From Archangiaceae bacterium (GTDB lineage: Bacteria > Myxococcota > Myxococcia > Myxococcales > Myxococcaceae), in NCBI GenBank assembly GCA_016879935.1, contig JAACJQ010000440.1, positions 1 through 37,405 of the forward strand: DNA of 37,405 bases. The letters are read 5' to 3'. The notes below the pieces were generated by a model. The model had not been told where the DNA came from. It saw nothing but the letters and a program-made list of their open reading frames with translations, and ran no database searches. How positions within the stretch are numbered: position 1 is the first letter of the stretch; each line of letters opens with the position of its first letter. This document shows positions 21,464-35,139 of the stretch, in pieces. Both the position numbers and the translations under genes were made by a program.

Positions 21464-22999
21464 TCAGCGCGGCGCTCCGGCCAGCAGCACCACTCCGAGG
21501 TTCGCGGTGACGTAGTGAAGCGCGCCAAGCGAACTCACGCTCACCTGGTCTCCGGCGTCGAGCTTCAACCCGAGCGCGCCGAACGAACCGAGACGGGCGA
21601 ACGCAAGCACCAGGCCCGCGTCGAAGCTCAGGGCCGGTGCGACCTCGAGCCGCTTCGTTCCGTACCGCTCGCCGACGACGCCACCACCGACAGAGACCGT
21701 CAGGCGCAGCTCGGAGGCGCCGGAGATGAGCGTGGGCTCCCAGGTCGCCGCCGTCGACGCGGTGAACTCGGGGACCACGAAGGTGGTCGGCACCACGCCG
21801 AAATCACGCTCGAGCTGGTCTCGTGTCGAGCGCGGGCTCTGGAACACGTAGGCCGCGCGCAGCACGCGCCACCCGAACGCGTGCGCGAAGAAGTGCGTGA
21901 AGTCGACCTGCGGCGCGAGGCCCACCGTGTAGATGTCGACCGGCGCGACGCTGAACTGCACACCAACCACTTCACGACCGCGCAGCTGCGAGGGCCCCTT
22001 CGTCGGCAACGTGAGCATGCCCACGAGCGTGAGGTCGGCTTCGTCGAGCTTCGTCGCCTGATCGGCGCTCACCTGCACCTCGCGCGAGTACACCTCTCCG
22101 TTGCGCACGCGCCGCACGAGGTACGGGCCGGGCACCAGCGCGAGCCGGAGCACCTGTTCCCCCGGCGCCGCCTCGACCACGGTGATGCCCGTCGACAACT
22201 GCACCACCTCGAGTGGGCCCTGCGACTGCGCGACGACGAGCTGCGTGCCCGCCTTCGGAGCCGTCGTCAGCACCACGTCTTGCCGGCCACGAAGCCGCAA
22301 GTCGAAGCTCGGGTGCTGCGGCTCGAGGCTGCGCGTCGCGGTGTCTCGAATCGTGAGCCGGTTCGCGTACGCGAACGCCTCCGAGAGCGTCACCTGGCCA
22401 TCGCCCGAGGTGTCTGCCGCGCCACGAAGCCCTCCGACGAGGTGGTGCGTGAAGAAGCTGCCGCGCAGCACCTCGGCCTCGTGGGCGTCTTCGAGCCCGG
22501 AGCTCGCGGCCAGCAACGCGGTGCCTTCGCTCGAGAGCGCGGGCACGCCGACCTCGAAGGCCTTCGTGGGTTTGAGGCCCTTCGCCTGCGTCCAACCTCC
22601 GCCGCGGCAGGCGTCGATGATGCCGATGCGCACGCCGCTGCCGGAGTCACCGAGGCGCTCCTTCAACGTCGCGAACGAGAGCGCCCGGCCTCCGGGGAAG
22701 AGCGCGGCCTCGTCGGCGTGGCCCGAGTAGTAGAAGACGAGCAGGCCGTCGTTGGCGGTCTCGGCGCGAGCGGTGTCGAGCGCCGCCAGCACGGCGTCTG
22801 GGTTCGGGTCGAGCAGCACCGTCACGTCGGAAGTCGCGAACCCTCCGCTCGTCTGCAACACGTCGGCGAGGTTCTGCGCGTCTCGATGCGCGAAGTGCAG
22901 CGGCGTGCGGCCATCGATGGCGGTGTTCGAGCCGACGAGCACCGCGCGACGTGCCGGCGTGGCGCTCACCAGCAGACTCAACAGGAGCGCACCCATCAT
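21464..22999 (-). CDS. Secreted caspase-like (peptidase C14) protease with EF-hand and beta-rich C-terminal domain
   Basis: A 511-residue exported protein. The signal peptide (about 1-15) is followed by a caspase p20-type domain with catalytic His94 in YYSGHAD and Cys131 in IIDACRGG. An EF-hand loop DTSGDGQVTLSE (about 196-207) could bind calcium, which activates several metacaspases and orthocaspases. Residues about 235-330 form a PEGA-like beta region. The last 180 residues resemble an outer-membrane beta-barrel or surface domain (LRLTVSVGGGVVG, LGALHYVTANLGVVLL). The start at 22999 overlaps the anti-sigma stop (ATGA), making it third in an ECF sigma / anti-sigma / protease operon. An envelope-stress-induced protease is the simplest inference. 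The substrate is unknown. Confidence 0.85.
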   Translation of the reverse strand: MMGALLLSLLVSATPARRAVLVGSNTAIDGRTPLHFAHRDAQNLADVLQTSGGFATSDVTVLLDPNPDAVLAALDTARAETANDGLLVFYYSGHADEAALFPGGRALSFATLKERLGDSGSGVRIGIIDACRGGGWTQAKGLKPTKAFEVGVPALSSEGTALLAASSGLEDAHEAEVLRGSFFTHHLVGGLRGAADTSGDGQVTLSEAFAYANRLTIRDTATRSLEPQHPSFDLRLRGRQDVVLTTAPKAGTQLVVAQSQGPLEVVQLSTGITVVEAAPGEQVLRLALVPGPYLVRRVRNGEVYSREVQVSADQATKLDEADLTLVGMLTLPTKGPSQLRGREVVGVQFSVAPVDIYTVGLAPQVDFTHFFAHAFGWRVLRAAYVFQSPRSTRDQLERDFGVVPTTFVVPEFTASTAATWEPTLISGASELRLTVSVGGGVVGERYGTKRLEVAPALSFDAGLVLAFARLGSFGALGLKLDAGDQVSVSSLGALHYVTANLGVVLLAGAPR

Positions 23000-23604
23000 C
23001 GGCTCCCCGCGCGCAGGTCGAAGCGGCGACACCACACCGCCACGCCGTCACACGCTTCGATGATGGCCGGCGTCACCACGTCGTTCGAGAGCACGACCCA
23101 GACGACGTCTCCACCGGGAGTGCCGTCGAGCGTCCACGCGGGCGTCATCGTCGTCTCCTTCACGAGCGCTTCGTAGAGCACGGTCCTGGTGGTGCCGTCG
23201 ATGACCGTCACCCGGCTCAACCCCTCGGGCGCGACCTGAAATCGAACGGAGTCGCCGACCGTGAGCGGCGCCCCTTTCCACTGCGAGACGTCGTCGCCGC
23301 GCTTCACCCACGCGATGGCCGTCGGCGGTCCCTTTGCGCGCAGCTCATCGGCAGGCCGAGCGCTGATCAGCACGACCATCACCAGCGCGGCCGCGACGGG
23401 AAGCAGCACCTGAAACCAGCGCTGCTTCCACCACGGCGCCGACGGGCGAAGCCCGAGCACGCGAGGGGGAATGGGAGCCGCGACGGACACCGCGTCGAGA
23501 TGCGCGCGGCACACGGAACACGCGCCCACGTGCGCCGCGACCTCGGGTGTCGAGGCTCCGAGCGCGTGCCGGTCGAGCGCGAGGAAAGAAGGGTGCTCGT
23601 TCAT
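22996..23604 (-). CDS. Transmembrane anti-sigma factor with zinc-finger motif
   Basis: A 202-residue single-pass membrane protein. The N-terminal cytosolic part has the HxxxCxxC anti-sigma zinc finger as HVGACSVC (His25, Cys29, Cys32). The membrane helix is at about 67-87 (VLLPVAAALVMVVLISA). The periplasmic part, about 115 residues, is beta-rich (VGDSVRFQVAPEGLSRVTVID) and may sense the signal. It should hold the upstream ECF sigma inactive until an envelope signal triggers release. Its start overlaps the sigma stop and its stop overlaps the caspase-like start, both as ATGA, so the three products are probably made together. Confidence 0.88.
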   Translation of the reverse strand: MNEHPSFLALDRHALGASTPEVAAHVGACSVCRAHLDAVSVAAPIPPRVLGLRPSAPWWKQRWFQVLLPVAAALVMVVLISARPADELRAKGPPTAIAWVKRGDDVSQWKGAPLTVGDSVRFQVAPEGLSRVTVIDGTTRTVLYEALVKETTMTPAWTLDGTPGGDVVWVVLSNDVVTPAIIEACDGVAVWCRRFDLRAGSR

Positions 23605-24062
23605 GACTTCACCTCGAGGCGGGCGACGCGTTCATCGAAGCGGGAGAGCAGGCGGCGCACGGTGCGCTCCGAGATGCCGAGCACGGCCGCGGCTTCGGGC
23701 TGCGTGAGACCGTCGAGACGCGAGAGCACCGCGACGTGCAGCTCGTCGGCATCGGCAACGCTCACGAGCCGCTGGAGCGTCTGACGATGACCCGTCGTCG
23801 CTTCGAGGTCGGGCGACACCGTCGCCTGCGGAACCGGGCGCTGGTGCATCGCGCGCTGCCGGAGCCGGTCGATGCACAGGTGCGTCGCCGACTTGTACAG
23901 CCACGCCGTCACGTCGCGAACGTCGTCAGACAGGCCGCGCTGCCAGAGCCGAACGAACACGTCTTGCGCCACGTCGTCGGCCTCGTCTGCGTCTTTCAAG
24001 ACACGTCGACACTTCTCGCGAACGAGCGGTGAAAAGCGTCGCCAGGCCTCCTGCACGTCCAC
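23601..24062 (-). CDS. ECF-family RNA polymerase sigma factor
   Basis: A 153-residue sigma-70 family protein with only regions 2 and 4. Region 2 is recognised by DEADDVAQDVFVRLWQRG and VTAWLYKSATHLCIDRLRQ. Region 4 is recognised by LDGLTQPEAAAVLGISERTVRRLLSRF (the helix-turn-helix LGISERTVRRLL is clear). It would direct transcription of its own operon and others when freed from the anti-sigma encoded next. The GTG start at 24062 has AGGGGA about 7 bases upstream. It is head to head with a second ECF gene across about 230 bases that hold two inverted repeats. Confidence 0.92.
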   Translation of the reverse strand: MDVQEAWRRFSPLVREKCRRVLKDADEADDVAQDVFVRLWQRGLSDDVRDVTAWLYKSATHLCIDRLRQRAMHQRPVPQATVSPDLEATTGHRQTLQRLVSVADADELHVAVLSRLDGLTQPEAAAVLGISERTVRRLLSRFDERVARLEVKS

Positions 24063-24207: not shown

Positions 24208-24284
24208 CGAGGGTCGTACTTCCGGCCACGTCATCGCTGATCTGATTTCTGGGGGAATTTCCATCGGCCAAGCCGTTGAACTCG

Positions 24285-24308
24285 CCCGGAATGCCCGACA
24301 ATTCCGGG
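24285..24308. repeat. Perfect inverted repeat at the start of the right-hand ECF sigma gene
   Basis: CCCGGAAT and ATTCCGGG form 8-base arms around an 8-base spacer. The ATG candidate at 24291 lies inside it. It could be a regulator site, or an RNA hairpin that masks this ATG. Either reading favours translation from GTG 24312 or 24327, just downstream. Confidence 0.5.
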
Positions 24309-24821
24309 TTGGTGTCTAAGGCCTTCGTGACTGCGACCCCTGCGGCGGCAGAGCTCTACCAGCGCTACGGCGCGCTCGTGCTGCGAAGGGCCCGGGCCCT
24401 GCTCGGCGAAGAACAGGCCGCGCGCGACGCCACCCACGACGTCTTCGTGAAGGTGCTCTCGACGCTCGACTCGTTTCGCCACGAGGCCTCGCCCGTCACC
24501 TGGCTGTACCGGGCGACGACGAACCACTGCCTCAACGTGCTGCGCGACCAATCGCGGCGAGGCCGGGTGGTGCCGCTGCTGCGCGCCGACCCCGAGCCGA
24601 CCGAGGTGACGCTCGACGAGAAGCTCTCGCTCACCACGGTGCTCGCGCGGGTGCCCGACGAGCTGCGCGAAATCGCCGTCTATTACTACCTGGACCAGAT
24701 GAGCCACGACGAGATCGCGAAGCTCACGGGGCTGTCGCGGCGCACCATCGGCAACCGGCTCGTCGAGTTCCACACCGCGGCGAAGCTGGCGGCCGTCGAC
24801 GTGAAGGAGGCCGCGCGATGA
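24291..24821 (+). CDS. ECF-family RNA polymerase sigma factor
   Basis: A sigma-70 family protein of about 164-176 residues with region 2 (ELYQRYGALVLRRARALLG, then DATHDVFVKVLSTL and VTWLYRATTNHCLNVLRDQ) and region 4 (LREIAVYYYLDQMSHDEIAK, then LTGLSRRTIGNRLVEF). The start is uncertain. ATG 24291 lies inside an inverted repeat and lacks a ribosome-binding sequence. GTG 24327 has AAGG five bases upstream and begins right before the conserved region. Upstream, GGAAT at 24254 followed about 15 bases later by CGTT is a weak ECF-type promoter candidate, which would suit autoregulation. The stop overlaps the start of a zinc-finger/FHA fusion gene (ATGA), which probably encodes its anti-sigma partner. 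Confidence 0.92.
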   Translation: MPDNSGLVSKAFVTATPAAAELYQRYGALVLRRARALLGEEQAARDATHDVFVKVLSTLDSFRHEASPVTWLYRATTNHCLNVLRDQSRRGRVVPLLRADPEPTEVTLDEKLSLTTVLARVPDELREIAVYYYLDQMSHDEIAKLTGLSRRTIGNRLVEFHTAAKLAAVDVKEAAR

Positions 24822-26557
24822 ACGTGCCCATCACCCGTCGCAGCGTCGGCTGTGTGTCGGACCTCACCATCGACCGCTGGCTCCTCGGCGAGACGCCCGG
24901 CTCCGACGAAGCGCGCCGCCTCGAGGAGCACATGAAGCACTGCGCGGTCTGCGCGGCGCGGCTGGGCTCGCTGCGAAACCTGTACACGACGCAGCCGAAC
25001 GCCACGGCCGCCATCACGGCGCACGCGCTCGACGAGGCTCCACGCGCGACACCGAGCGAGACCGGTGTGCTGCAGGTCATCGTGTTGCGTGACGGCCTGC
25101 TCGTCGGCACCGAGTACTTCACGCCCGGCAAGTGGCTCGTCGGGAGCGGCCAGGGCTGCGACCTGAACCTCGCCGAAGGGCCTGCGGCTCGGCACGCGTC
25201 GCTCGTCTTCCACGCGGGCACCGTCGCCGTCGAGTCTCGCGAGGGCCCCATCTTCGTGAATGGCGTTCGCCTGCAGCGCGCCGAGGTGCGGCCCATCGAC
25301 GAGGTCTGGGTCGGGCCCTACGTGCTGCGCGTGCGGCTCATCACCGAGCGGTGGAGCTGGCCGGCGATGGTGACGGCGCCGGTGAAGACGCAGGAGCTGC
25401 CCACGGTGGTGATGGAGCGGCCCGCCACCCCGCTCGTCACGTGCCTGCACGCGACGCTCTGGTGGGGCGACACGCAGGTCTCGTCGCTCGTTGCCTCCGA
25501 GCAGCTCCTGGCCTCGCAGGTCTCGACGCTCGGCTTCGACGTCGACGTGCACGCGCGGCGAGATGCAGGCCAGTGGAAGGTGACGAGTCCGACGGGCGTG
25601 GTCTCGCTCTCGCTCAACGAGGCCACCTCCCTCGAGGCCGGAGCGCTGCGCCTGGTGCTGACCGTTCGTGAACCGGCGGCGTCGCTGCCGAAGACGCGCA
25701 GCACCGAGCGCCTGTTTCCTGCCGTGCTCGCGGCGACGGTGCTCGCGTCTGCGCTGGTGCTCATGGTGATGCCAGAGCCGAGCGAAGAAGACTTCGCGCC
25801 GCGCCCGATTCCGCCCGTGAAGGTCGTCGTCACGCAGCCCGCGCCGAAGCCGACCCCGACGCCGCAGCCTTCGGCAGCGCCCACGCCGAACACGCCGCCC
25901 GCCGTCGCCACGCGGCCGTCGTCGAAGTCGCAGCGCGCGTCGCCGCCGCCTCCGCGCAACCGCTTCGAGGCGCTCGACCGCGTGATGAAGTCGGCCCTCA
26001 ATGCGTCCACCACCCTCGCGCGTGCCGGAGCTGGCGCGAAGACCTCGGGCGCCCGCTCGCCGCTGGTCGCGATGCCCGGCGTCGGCCCAGCGAAGTTCAC
26101 GCTCGGCCTCTCGGAGGCGGGTCTCGGCATCGGCCAGCGCGGCGCGATTCACGGCGGTGAGATGCACGCCGGCGGCTATGGGAAAGACGGAAAGGTCGGC
26201 GGCCGCGTCGTGGGGCCCGTGCGTGCGGCGAGCGTCGGCCTCCCGAAGAAGGAAGGCGGCGTCATCGACCGTGACGCGGTGGCGAAGGTCATCGGCGAAC
26301 ACCTGCAAGAGGTGCAGCGCTGCTACGAGGCGAGCCTGTTGCTCGAGGGCAGCGCGGGCGGCCGGCTCTCGGTGGAGTGGACCATCACGCCGAGCGGCTC
26401 CGTGGCGAACGCGCGCGTCTCGTCGACGACGCTGAAGCAGGCCTCGGTGCCCCAGTGCGTGCTGATGGCGCTCAAGCGCTGGGCGTTCCCCAAAGCGAAG
26501 GGCGGCAACGTCGTCATCACCTACCCGTTCGTGTTTCAGTCGTCGATGTACCGCTGA
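24818..26557 (+). CDS. Zinc-finger/FHA/transmembrane/AgmX-domain fusion, probable anti-sigma factor
   Basis: A 579-residue multidomain membrane protein. The N-terminus carries the anti-sigma-type zinc motif HMKHCAVC (His38, Cys42, Cys45). An FHA-like domain (about 85-173) follows, with GKWLVGSGQGCDLNL, ARHASLVF and FVNGVRL, a fold that binds phosphothreonine. A second beta domain (about 190-285) comes next, then one membrane helix (about 299-318). A Pro-rich spacer leads to a C-terminal AgmX/PglI (TonB-C-like) domain (about 480-579, VIGEHLQEVQRCYEASL and GSVANARVSSTTL). The zinc finger and FHA should face the cytosol and the AgmX domain the periplasm. Its start overlaps the sigma stop (ATGA). 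I infer that it restrains the sigma factor and links it to Ser/Thr kinase signalling and envelope state. Confidence 0.85.
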   Translation: MNVPITRRSVGCVSDLTIDRWLLGETPGSDEARRLEEHMKHCAVCAARLGSLRNLYTTQPNATAAITAHALDEAPRATPSETGVLQVIVLRDGLLVGTEYFTPGKWLVGSGQGCDLNLAEGPAARHASLVFHAGTVAVESREGPIFVNGVRLQRAEVRPIDEVWVGPYVLRVRLITERWSWPAMVTAPVKTQELPTVVMERPATPLVTCLHATLWWGDTQVSSLVASEQLLASQVSTLGFDVDVHARRDAGQWKVTSPTGVVSLSLNEATSLEAGALRLVLTVREPAASLPKTRSTERLFPAVLAATVLASALVLMVMPEPSEEDFAPRPIPPVKVVVTQPAPKPTPTPQPSAAPTPNTPPAVATRPSSKSQRASPPPPRNRFEALDRVMKSALNASTTLARAGAGAKTSGARSPLVAMPGVGPAKFTLGLSEAGLGIGQRGAIHGGEMHAGGYGKDGKVGGRVVGPVRAASVGLPKKEGGVIDRDAVAKVIGEHLQEVQRCYEASLLLEGSAGGRLSVEWTITPSGSVANARVSSTTLKQASVPQCVLMALKRWAFPKAKGGNVVITYPFVFQSSMYR

Positions 26558-31812: not shown

Positions 31813-34800
31813 ATGTCTGCTCCCGTCGCTGGCCGGTACCATCTGATCAGAAAGCTCGCGACGGGCGGCATGGCCGAGGTCTTCCTCGCGAAGCAGCAGG
31901 GCAAGAAGGGCTTCGAGAAGCTGGTGTGCCTCAAGCGCATTCTGCCCGGCTACGCCGACGACCCCGACTTCGTGCGCATGTTCGTCGACGAAGCGCGCGT
32001 GGCGGCCGACCTGCGGCACCCGAACCTGGTGAACGTCTTCGACGCCGGCGAAGACGAGGGCGCCTGGTACATGGTGATGGAGTACCTCGAGGGCCACGAC
32101 GTGGCCTCCATCATTCGCCAGGCGCACGCGCGGCAGGCCGAGGTGCCCGTCTCGGTGGCGGTGCAGGTGGTGGCCGACGCCGCGCGAGGGCTGCACGCCG
32201 CGCACGTGAAGACCGACCTCTCGGGCCAGCCGATGGCCATCGTGCACCGCGACATCTCGCCGCAGAACCTCTTCGTCACCCGCGACGGCATCACCAAGGT
32301 GCTCGACTTCGGCGTGGCGCGCTCGGCGCATCGCAGCTCGAAGACCGAGGTCGGCGTGGTGAAGGGCAAGCTCGGCTACGTGTCGCCGGAGCAGCTCGAG
32401 GCGGTCGAGCTCGACGGGCGCTCCGACCTCTATTCGCTGGGCGTGGTGCTGTGGGAGCTGCTGGTGCTCGAGCGCCTCTTCGCGCGCGCCAGTGACGCCG
32501 AGGTGCTGCGCGCCATCATCGAAGGCCGCGTCGCGGCGCCGTCGACGAAACGAAAAGGTCTGCCGAAGGAGCTCGACGCGCTGGTGCTCAAGGCGCTCTC
32601 CCTCGACCGCGACAAGCGCTTCGCCACCTGCGAGGCCTTCGCGACTGCGCTCGAAGACTTCCTCTCGGAGCACAAGACGCCGTCGTCGCCTTCCCGCCTG
32701 ACGCGCTGGCTGGCGGGCTTGTTCGAAGGCGCGCCCACGGTGACGGCGCCTGCTGCGCCTGCGCCCCGCAGCCCCGACGAGAAGACGAAGACGCGCAAGC
32801 TGAAGGCCGTCGACAAGAAGAAGGAGCCGAAGCTCGAGCAGGCCGACGACTTCCTCGGCGCGGTCGAACAGTTCCTCGGCCGTGACACGCGCCGCAAGAC
32901 GAACCTGCTGCCCGCGGCGAGTGCCTTCATCGGCCGGGAGAAGGACCTGAGCGCCCTGACGGCCTCGTTCGACGAAGGCGCGCGGCTGGTGACGCTCGTG
33001 GGCTTCGGCGGCATGGGCAAGACGCGGCTCGCGCAGCAGTACGCCTCGACGCAGCTGCCCGCGTACGAGGCCGATGGTGGCGTGTGGTTCGTCGACCTCG
33101 CCGAGTGTCATTCGCTCGAGCAGGTGGCGAAGGCCGTGGCGCAGGCGCTCGACGTGCAGGTGCCGATGAACGCCACCTCCGACGCGACGGTGACGCACGC
33201 GGGGCGAACGCTGAAGTCGCTCGGCCGCGCGCTGGTGGTGCTCGACAACTTCGAGCAGCTGGTGCCCTTCGCACAGGGGTCGGTCGGCGCGTGGCTGACG
33301 AAAGCGCCCGAGCTGCGGGTGCTCGTCACCAGCCGTGAAGCACTGCAGGTTGCCGATGAAGTCGTGCAACCGCTCGAGCCCCTGCCCGTCGGCGGCGTGG
33401 AGTCGGCCGCGATGCAGCTGTTCCGCGCGCGCGCCGAGCTCGTTCGGCCCAAAGCGCTCAGCCGCGCCGAGCTCGAAGACGTCGCCCACATCGTCGAGCG
33501 GCTCGAAGGCCACCCGCTCGCGCTCGAGCTGGCGGCGTCACGCTTGTCGGAGCTGTCGGTGCGTGAAGTGCGCGACCGGCTGCGTGAACGCTTCGACCTG
33601 CTCGGCGGGCGCGCGACGAAGAACACCTACCGGCACGCGACGCTGTGGAACACCATCGACTGGTCGTGGCAGCTGCTCACGCCCGCGGAGCAGCAGGCGC
33701 TCTCGCAGCTCTCGGTCTTCCGCGGTGGCTTCACGCTCCAGGCAGCGAGCGCCGTCATCGACGTCGACGGCAAGAAGGGCAAAGACCCGGTCGACCTCGT
33801 GCGCGCGCTGCACCGCAAGAGCCTGGTGCGCTACTTCGCCGTGCCCACGCTGCCCCAAGAGCTGCGGCTGGGGCTGCTCGAGTCGATTCACGAGTTCGCC
33901 GCCGAGAAGCTGACCGCGATGGATGGTGAAGGCCGCACGCGAAAGCGTCACGCCGCGCACTACCTCGACGTCGGGCGCGAGTGGGCCAGCGCGGTCGCCA
34001 ATGGAACGTCGCTCGACGCGCTCACGCACCTCGAGGTCGAGCGCGAGAACCTCACCGAGGTGTTCGACCGCGCGCTCTCGGCCATGCCGCCGACGCAGGC
34101 CACCGCCACCACCGCGCTGGGCGCCCTCGAAGCGCTCGAGCCCGTCTTCCTTCGCAAGGGGCCCTTCTCGGCGCACATGGCGCTGCTCGACGACGCGCTC
34201 ACCGTGGCGCGCAACGTGGGCGTGAAGAGCACCGTCATCGCGCGGGCCATGCAGCAGCGCGGGAATCTGCAGCGCACGCTCGGCCGGCCGCAGCTCGCGG
34301 TGGAGGACCTGAGCCGCGCCGTCAGCATCGTCGAGTCGACGGGAGAGAAGGCGCTCGAGGGCCGCATTCGCAGAGACCTCGCGGTCGCGCGCTTCGTCTC
34401 GGGTGACGTCGAGTCGGCGCGTGACTGGCTCGTGAGCGCGTTGTCGGCGGCGAGAGAGAGCAAAGACGAAGCGCTCGTGCTGCAGACGTTGTCGTCGCTC
34501 GCCATCGTGCAGGTGGCGATGGGTGAGGTCGACGAAGCGGCGCTGTGCTGCGACGAAGGGCTGCCGCTGGCGAGGAAGCGTGGCGACTCCACCACCGAAG
34601 CGCGCCTGCTGGGCAGCCTCGGCACCATCTACCAGGAGCAGGAGAAGCTCGACCTCGCGCTCACCTTCTTCACCGAGGCCGTCGCGCGGGCCAACGCCGT
34701 GCGAGACGTGCGGCTCGAGGGCTACTTCGTCGGCAAACGCGCGGGCACGCTGCTGGCGCGCGGCGAATACGAGGCCGCCGAGAAGCCGCTCGAAGACGCC

Positions 34801-35139
34801 ATCACCCGGCTCGCCGAGGTGGGAGACCTTCGTCACGAGGGCCTCTTCCTCACCTACCTCGCCGTCGTGCAGCTGCACCGTGGCCACTTCGCGCAGGCCC
34901 GCATCACCTTGTCGGCGGCGCAGGTGCGGCTCGAGGCCGTGAAAGACCCACTCTCGCTCACCGCGCTCGCGATTCGCCGGTTGCACGTCGAGGTGGCAGC
35001 GAAAGACGCGGGTCCGAAAGAGGCGCGCGCGATGCTGGCCGACGTTCGCGCCGCGCGTGGCAGCCGGCGGGCACGCACCGGGCAGAGCGAAGAGGTGCGC
35101 ATCGCAGCCCGGGCGCTCGAAGACGCGCTCTCGAGCTGA
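31813..35139 (+). CDS. Ser/Thr protein kinase fused to STAND-type ATPase and TPR domain
   Basis: A 1108-residue soluble signalling protein. The N-terminal Hanks-type kinase (about 9-285) has the Gly loop LATGGMAEVFLA, catalytic Lys in LVCLKRI, VHRDISPQN (Asp147), DFG (Asp165) and YVSPEQ. A Pro/Lys-rich linker leads to a STAND/AAA ATPase (about 375-640) with Walker A GFGGMGKT (397-404), Walker B ALVVLDNFEQ (Asp478), LVTSREAL and GHPLALELAA. A helical TPR array fills about 720-1100. STAND domains switch between closed ADP and open ATP states, and PknK-type kinases share the kinase-ATPase order. No membrane helix is seen. ATG 31813 is chosen because the kinase starts right after it. It is divergent from the VWA gene (95 bases) and its stop abuts the next convergent stop. 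Confidence 0.92.
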   Translation: MSAPVAGRYHLIRKLATGGMAEVFLAKQQGKKGFEKLVCLKRILPGYADDPDFVRMFVDEARVAADLRHPNLVNVFDAGEDEGAWYMVMEYLEGHDVASIIRQAHARQAEVPVSVAVQVVADAARGLHAAHVKTDLSGQPMAIVHRDISPQNLFVTRDGITKVLDFGVARSAHRSSKTEVGVVKGKLGYVSPEQLEAVELDGRSDLYSLGVVLWELLVLERLFARASDAEVLRAIIEGRVAAPSTKRKGLPKELDALVLKALSLDRDKRFATCEAFATALEDFLSEHKTPSSPSRLTRWLAGLFEGAPTVTAPAAPAPRSPDEKTKTRKLKAVDKKKEPKLEQADDFLGAVEQFLGRDTRRKTNLLPAASAFIGREKDLSALTASFDEGARLVTLVGFGGMGKTRLAQQYASTQLPAYEADGGVWFVDLAECHSLEQVAKAVAQALDVQVPMNATSDATVTHAGRTLKSLGRALVVLDNFEQLVPFAQGSVGAWLTKAPELRVLVTSREALQVADEVVQPLEPLPVGGVESAAMQLFRARAELVRPKALSRAELEDVAHIVERLEGHPLALELAASRLSELSVREVRDRLRERFDLLGGRATKNTYRHATLWNTIDWSWQLLTPAEQQALSQLSVFRGGFTLQAASAVIDVDGKKGKDPVDLVRALHRKSLVRYFAVPTLPQELRLGLLESIHEFAAEKLTAMDGEGRTRKRHAAHYLDVGREWASAVANGTSLDALTHLEVERENLTEVFDRALSAMPPTQATATTALGALEALEPVFLRKGPFSAHMALLDDALTVARNVGVKSTVIARAMQQRGNLQRTLGRPQLAVEDLSRAVSIVESTGEKALEGRIRRDLAVARFVSGDVESARDWLVSALSAARESKDEALVLQTLSSLAIVQVAMGEVDEAALCCDEGLPLARKRGDSTTEARLLGSLGTIYQEQEKLDLALTFFTEAVARANAVRDVRLEGYFVGKRAGTLLARGEYEAAEKPLEDAITRLAEVGDLRHEGLFLTYLAVVQLHRGHFAQARITLSAAQVRLEAVKDPLSLTALAIRRLHVEVAAKDAGPKEARAMLADVRAARGSRRARTGQSEEVRIAARALEDALSS

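Follow-up and report, generated by a model that had tools for sequence, protein, structure and literature searches.

A predicted sigma/anti-sigma gene pair in Archangiaceae bacterium in which a zinc-type anti-sigma domain precedes a paralogue of the gliding-machine protein GltG

We analyzed a window of 37,405 nucleotides from Archangiaceae bacterium, which comprises one whole contig (JAACJQ010000440.1 of assembly GCA_016879935.1). The window contains a gene pair coding for an ECF sigma factor and for a multidomain membrane protein, referred to here as the fusion, with a zinc-type anti-sigma (ZAS) domain at its N-terminus. The features of the pair and of its surroundings are:

24292–24319, + strand: predicted ECF promoter TGCCCG-N15-TGTCTAA, 7 bases before the GTG start of the sigma gene
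24327–24821, + strand: ECF sigma factor, 164 amino acids from GTG 24327
24818–26557, + strand: ZAS-FHA-beta-TM-(Pro-rich)-AgmX fusion, 579 amino acids, a GltG paralogue with the predicted anti-sigma domain N-terminal
24818–24985, + strand: zinc-type class I anti-sigma domain (predicted), residues 1–56, ligands C12, H38, C42 and C45
25064–25351, + strand: FHA domain with degenerate pocket, residues 83–178, Z 14 to FHA structures
25430–25678, + strand: second all-beta domain, residues 205–287, collinear with GltG, pLDDT about 95
25712–25768, + strand: single transmembrane (TM) helix, residues 299–317, positive before and negative after
25778–26257, + strand: Pro-rich linker, residues 321–480, predicted periplasmic
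26264–26539, + strand: AgmX/PglI (TonB-C-like) tail, residues 483–574, NF033768 E 5e-29, above cut-off
23601–24062, − strand: second ECF sigma factor, divergent, in a separate cassette (context)
22996–23604, − strand: zinc-motif membrane anti-sigma-like protein of the divergent cassette, with an HVGACSVC motif and a TM helix by sequence (context)
21464–23035, − strand: caspase-domain (Peptidase_C14) protein of the divergent cassette, E 8e-11 (context)
31816–35139, + strand: Ser/Thr kinase-NB-ARC-TPR protein (context)

The anti-sigma-like protein at 22996–23604 gave no Pfam match, and searches of phage and defence libraries yielded no matches. An orthologue of the kinase-NB-ARC-TPR protein with 82% identity is located directly behind the fusion gene in G006 (L039, 9915–13223).

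The sigma factor consists of regions sigma2 and sigma4 only and is recognized by the profiles Sigma70_r2 (E 3e-14), Sigma70_r4_2 (E 8e-9) and TIGR02937 (E 1.5e-22). Its stop codon is joined to the start of the fusion gene by a 4-bp ATGA overlap (24818–24821). An initial annotation of the window had described this overlap and both open reading frames as we find them, and the sigma gene it reported is real; the start codon it had chosen, TTG 24276, is however too early. Translation most likely begins at GTG 24327, because two orthologous loci (G003 and G004) carry an in-frame TAA two codons 5' of the GTG and because a conserved promoter-like element lies upstream of it. The fusion is present in 6 of 96 genomes of the family, namely in four of the seven genomes of the genus and in G010 and G065 from two other genera. 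Since the fusion gene is in all six orthologues immediately preceded by the same sigma gene and overlaps it by the same 4 bp, the pairing is, judged by conserved gene order, not due to chance. Homologues that never sit beside a sigma gene, which the initial annotation had named as evidence against its reading, were not encountered; no homologue was found away from one.

In five of the six orthologous loci the two halves of the promoter-like element are separated by exactly 15 bases. The halves in G010 are the variants TACCCG and TGTCCAA, and the G004 locus, which is located at a contig end, retains only a decayed version of the pattern. Allowing three mismatches gave matches in the window at chance level only, so searches relied on the exact pattern alone. 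Each of the genomes G000, G003, G006 and G065 contains it a single time, in every case at the sigma gene of this pair, and it has no other site in the nine genomes scanned, including G001, G002 and G005, which do not have the fusion locus; as the pattern was derived from these loci, its exactness there is partly by construction, whereas its absence elsewhere is not. From the exact match at its own start it is likely that the sigma factor autoregulates its operon, and the location of the pattern just before the start codon would fit a near-leaderless transcript. A wider regulon was considered and discarded, given that no second exact site exists in the nine genomes. Most matches with one mismatch read TGTCGAA in the second half, and one that keeps TGTCTAA (G000:C328:16877) does not precede a convincing gene.

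The N-terminal domain of the fusion contains the ligand set of the ZAS family, H/C-x24-26-H-x3-C-x2-C. Its zinc site, C12-x25-H38-x3-C42-x2-C45, is invariant in the six orthologues, down to 38% identity. The domain is the best conserved part of the protein (86–91% within the genus) and was modeled as three helices with block-mean pLDDT values of 55–71 over residues 11–50. The Pfam model zf-HC2 matches it with an E-value of 0.016 and 15.7 bits, i.e. below the cut-off of 22.2 bits. Because the zinc ligands are invariant in all six orthologues, we consider the ZAS assignment credible despite this score, and we infer that the domain binds the cognate sigma factor.

The remaining part of the protein was compared with a GltG-type protein encoded in the same genome. 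Residues 82–578 aligned with it over the full length (hhalign probability 100, E 1e-47), the FHA domain, the second beta domain, the TM helix, the Pro-rich linker and the AgmX tail all being collinear with GltG. The fusion reported in the initial annotation is confirmed, but by this comparison its parts from residue 82 on are a full-length GltG paralogue with a predicted anti-sigma domain in front, rather than a new set of domains. The protein is not filed as GltG itself, because it scores far below the NCBIfam equivalog cut-off for GltG (88.7 versus 650 bits); the GltG-type protein of the same genome is also below this cut-off (159.8 bits). The gene of the latter sits in a glt-like cluster together with CglF- and GltC-like genes, whereas the fusion gene is paired with a sigma gene. 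Nine channels of the MotA/ExbB family are encoded in the genome.

The Pfam matches of the window protein to FHA (E 0.06) and to Yop-YscD_cpl (E 6e-4) are below the cut-offs. Its predicted FHA structure matches solved FHA domains with a Foldseek E-value of 3e-6 and, in VIA, with a Z-score of 14 for 93–96 aligned residues at an rmsd of about 2. The second beta domain shows a weak FHA-like resemblance (best Z 6.9, Foldseek E above 0.1). A juxtamembrane DF motif in the region of the Pro-rich linker is common to the fusion and GltG, and the AgmX tail resembles structures of TonB C-terminal domains. The predicted topology has a cytoplasmic N-terminus and a periplasmic tail. The previously proposed domain order of ZAS, FHA, TM and AgmX/TonB-C is thus retained, with the second beta domain, which had been missed, inserted at residues 205–287. 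Of the two folds on which the earlier proposal depended, the FHA fold is clear and the helices of the anti-sigma domain are predicted with moderate confidence.

GltG is a TolA/TonB-like component of the gliding machine and is bound to its motor (PMC3169522, PMC5349195). It has one TM helix and a TonB-C motif, and its binding partner AglR is a TolQ-like motor subunit (PMC3169522, PMC3858216, PMC5349195). NfsG, a paralogue of GltG involved in spore-coat assembly, also binds AglR (PMC3858216). Upon deletion of gltG the transcripts of gltH increased 4–5 fold, and the authors noted a possible regulatory function (PMC3169522). GltG and NfsG from the Agl-Glt gliding and Agl-Nfs spore-coat systems of Myxococcus resemble the fusion in having an FHA domain, a single TM helix, a Pro-rich periplasmic part and a TonB-C tail, but GltG-type proteins are devoid of the N-terminal zinc anti-sigma domain. 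With the membrane-bound, zinc-containing class I anti-sigma factors (ZAS/ASDI) the fusion shares the Hx3Cx2C motif with an upstream ligand, a gene that immediately follows the ECF gene and overlaps it, and one TM helix (PMC7406223). It differs from them in its sensor half, which is a whole envelope-machine transducer. The PUMA3 system of Pseudomonas (VreA/VreI/VreR) is likewise an ECF system with a TolA/TonB-C-like periplasmic domain (PMC2729926). There, however, this domain belongs to a separate, mostly soluble periplasmic STN protein and the anti-sigma factor VreR is another protein (PMC2729926), whereas the fusion holds both parts in one chain. ECF/ZAS pairs are already known, as is GltG, and TonB-C-like parts have a precedent in sigma signalling; in the open-licence literature we found no description of an anti-sigma factor with FHA or GltG/AgmX parts.

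A survey of 195 genomes from the phylum yielded two further loci in which a sigma gene accompanies a ZAS-FHA-TM-AgmX protein, G194 and G131, both from other families of Myxococcota. At the G194 locus (L093, 6180–9388), zf-HC2 (26.4 bits), FHA and AgmX all exceed their curated cut-offs. The G131 locus (L206) shows the ATGA overlap and the motif C-x25-H-x3-C-x2-C. The x25 spacing of the zinc ligands is found in seven of the eight fusions; in the G194 protein (L093, ORF start 6857) a run of Asn-Ala repeats after the first Cys extends it to x33. Apparent ZAS-FHA matches in L202–L205 were dismissed, as these are FHA proteins with neither a zinc motif nor a recognized sigma factor. In a tree built from the FHA domain and the tail, the six Myxococcaceae-type fusions form a group next to the GltG proteins of their family. 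The G194 fusion clusters with GltG from its own genome and from kin, and the G131 fusion is placed next to its genome's own GltG. A single origin, with all fusions held together, is rejected (p-AU 3.9e-9). In the sigma tree, the G194 sigma factor is of another kind than that of the Myxococcaceae fusions; the G131 sigma factor was too divergent and was left out. The joining of ZAS and GltG thus appears, on phylogenetic grounds, to have occurred three separate times. The remaining alternative is gene conversion between a fusion and the GltG gene in the same genome, which could mimic independent origins.

The separate sigma-ZAS-caspase cassette of the window lies back to back with the fusion pair. 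In order to place the sigma factor, its 20 closest other relatives in the phylum were picked on sigma similarity alone, and all 20 examined have a caspase (Peptidase_C14) gene close behind. In nearly all of these cassettes a zinc-motif protein is encoded between the two, although the boundary between the ZAS and caspase genes is sometimes difficult to place by ORF calling. The sigma and ZAS kin in the cassettes of Myxococcota are the nearest relatives of the window pair, and the motif C-x-SDL..DR...GE is common to the ZAS domains of the fusions and of the cassettes. The nearest sigma factor outside the fusions (G040, 57% identical) joins the fusion sigma factors with a support of 92 (SH-aLRT). 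The cassettes differ from the fusions in that their ZAS is a protein of about 250 amino acids followed by a separate caspase gene, whereas no caspase gene lies behind the fusions and GltG is carried instead. In the simplest history, the pair would descend from a caspase-linked sigma-ZAS pair, the ZAS of which was grafted onto a copy of GltG while the caspase was lost.

Cassettes of the sigma-ZAS-caspase type occur phylum-wide (window 21464–24062, − strand; L043–L049, L086–L088, L090–L092, L162–L181), and we found no published account of them. Two more proteins are encoded close to the fusion locus of G010. A few kb away (L042, 11114–14265, − strand), a sigma gene is followed by ZAS, VIT, VWA and AgmX parts in one protein, which is a candidate for another AgmX-tailed anti-sigma factor. 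Adjoining the locus (L042, 3139–6675, − strand), a kinase-TPR protein carries a zf-HC2 motif before its kinase domain and is possibly a ZAS-kinase fusion.

Coupling of a sigma switch to an envelope machine had been suggested in the initial annotation. This idea is supported because the fusion is a paralogue of GltG, because GltG acts in gliding and because the linkage to the sigma gene is fixed (six of six orthologues); the two independent fusions are a further point in its favor. Based on these comparisons of sequence, we think that the pair is, on balance, probably an autoregulated module of an ECF sigma factor and a membrane anti-sigma factor, with a GltG-type transducer as the sensor half. 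We propose the following mechanism. The zinc anti-sigma domain at the N-terminus would hold the sigma factor on the cytoplasmic side. The FHA and second beta domains would form the cytoplasmic platform of a GltG protein and serve as a scaffold for protein-protein contacts instead of reading phosphothreonine. The TM helix and the stretch following it would be placed where GltG would touch a TolQ/AglR-like proton channel, and the Pro-rich linker and the TonB-C-like tail would span the periplasm towards partners in the outer membrane. A change of state of the tail or of the channel (outer-membrane contact, tension, loss or assembly of the machine) would be the trigger. It would pass through the TM helix and free the sigma factor by a conformational change or by proteolysis, and the freed sigma factor would then direct transcription of the operon that encodes it from TGCCCG-N15-TGTCTAA. 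In this scheme, contact with the motor, the signal and the step of release are presumed elements. More tentatively, the anti-sigma factor may itself be the force-transmitting arm, of the TolA/TonB/GltG type, of a proton-driven motor, so that engagement or stalling of this arm frees the sigma factor; such a mechanical or contact-dependent sigma switch may have evolved three times from local copies of GltG.

We regard it as unlikely that the fusion is a cytoplasmic redox or metal switch, in which sensing would occur at the zinc site, as in RsrA, with the GltG part serving only as a membrane anchor. The ligand set and its spacing, which we take to be that of RsrA, are indeed the same in all six orthologues and also in the G131 fusion. 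However, a C or H as first ligand at x24–25 is common in the ZAS of the caspase cassettes and hence not special, and about half of the membrane-bound anti-sigma factors have a zinc motif, the role of which may be structural there (PMC7406223). The repeated joining of GltG in particular would also be left unexplained.

Regulated proteolysis is a well-known mode of action of anti-sigma factors with a single TM helix, and the topology of the fusion fits it. The tail might then sense general envelope stress, and site-1 and site-2 proteases would free the sigma factor, with no motor or GltG-type partner involved. This we consider quite unlikely, since a complete GltG with a tail conserved to 80% within the genus, as well as the repeated choice of GltG, argues for a specific partner.

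The initial annotation had suggested that Ser/Thr kinases read the sigma switch from the inside, with the FHA domain as phosphothreonine reader. In FHA domains, phosphothreonine is bound by the Arg of a GR motif and the Ser of an SxxH motif. The window protein and all five orthologues have S or G in place of the pocket Arg and lack the Ser, so that the fold is present and the pocket is missing in six of six; for the window protein we have dropped a phosphothreonine reader. Both residues are also gone in the GltG of Myxococcaceae, whereas they are intact in nearly all aligned GltG proteins outside this family, and the FHA domain of the gliding machine may therefore have changed its function in Myxococcaceae (compare L051 and L226–L230, with Arg and Ser lost, with L211–L224 from other Myxococcota, where they are mostly intact). 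In the face of this loss, a phospho-switch is improbable; in such a switch the fusion or one of its partners would be phosphorylated by a Ser/Thr kinase, and the sigma factor would be released once the FHA domain has bound the phosphothreonine. The FHA fold itself would suit it, and a kinase gene is found near four of the six fusion loci (G000, G006, G010 and G065); this neighbourhood is weak evidence, because with about 150 kinase genes in the genome, or about one in every 63 kb, a kinase neighbour is not rare. The fusions of G194 and G131 have the canonical GR...SR.HA residues, and with the pocket intact a phospho input is plausible in these two proteins.

That the fusion is a GltG-like structural part merely sharing an operon with the sigma gene, its zinc domain having another task, would agree with the sub-cut-off Pfam score of the ZAS, but is highly improbable given the motif shared with the ZAS paired with the closest sigma relatives, the linkage to sigma in six of six orthologues and the two further fusions.

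If the pair is indeed a sigma/anti-sigma module with a GltG-type sensor half, it would represent a direct line from a machine for surface gliding or surface transport to gene expression, and it would bear on contact sensing by surface-moving bacteria. Being small and equipped with a predicted promoter, the pair is accessible to reporter assays in a laboratory myxobacterium. The apparently separate origins constitute natural replicates and suggest that ZAS and GltG are a useful combination.
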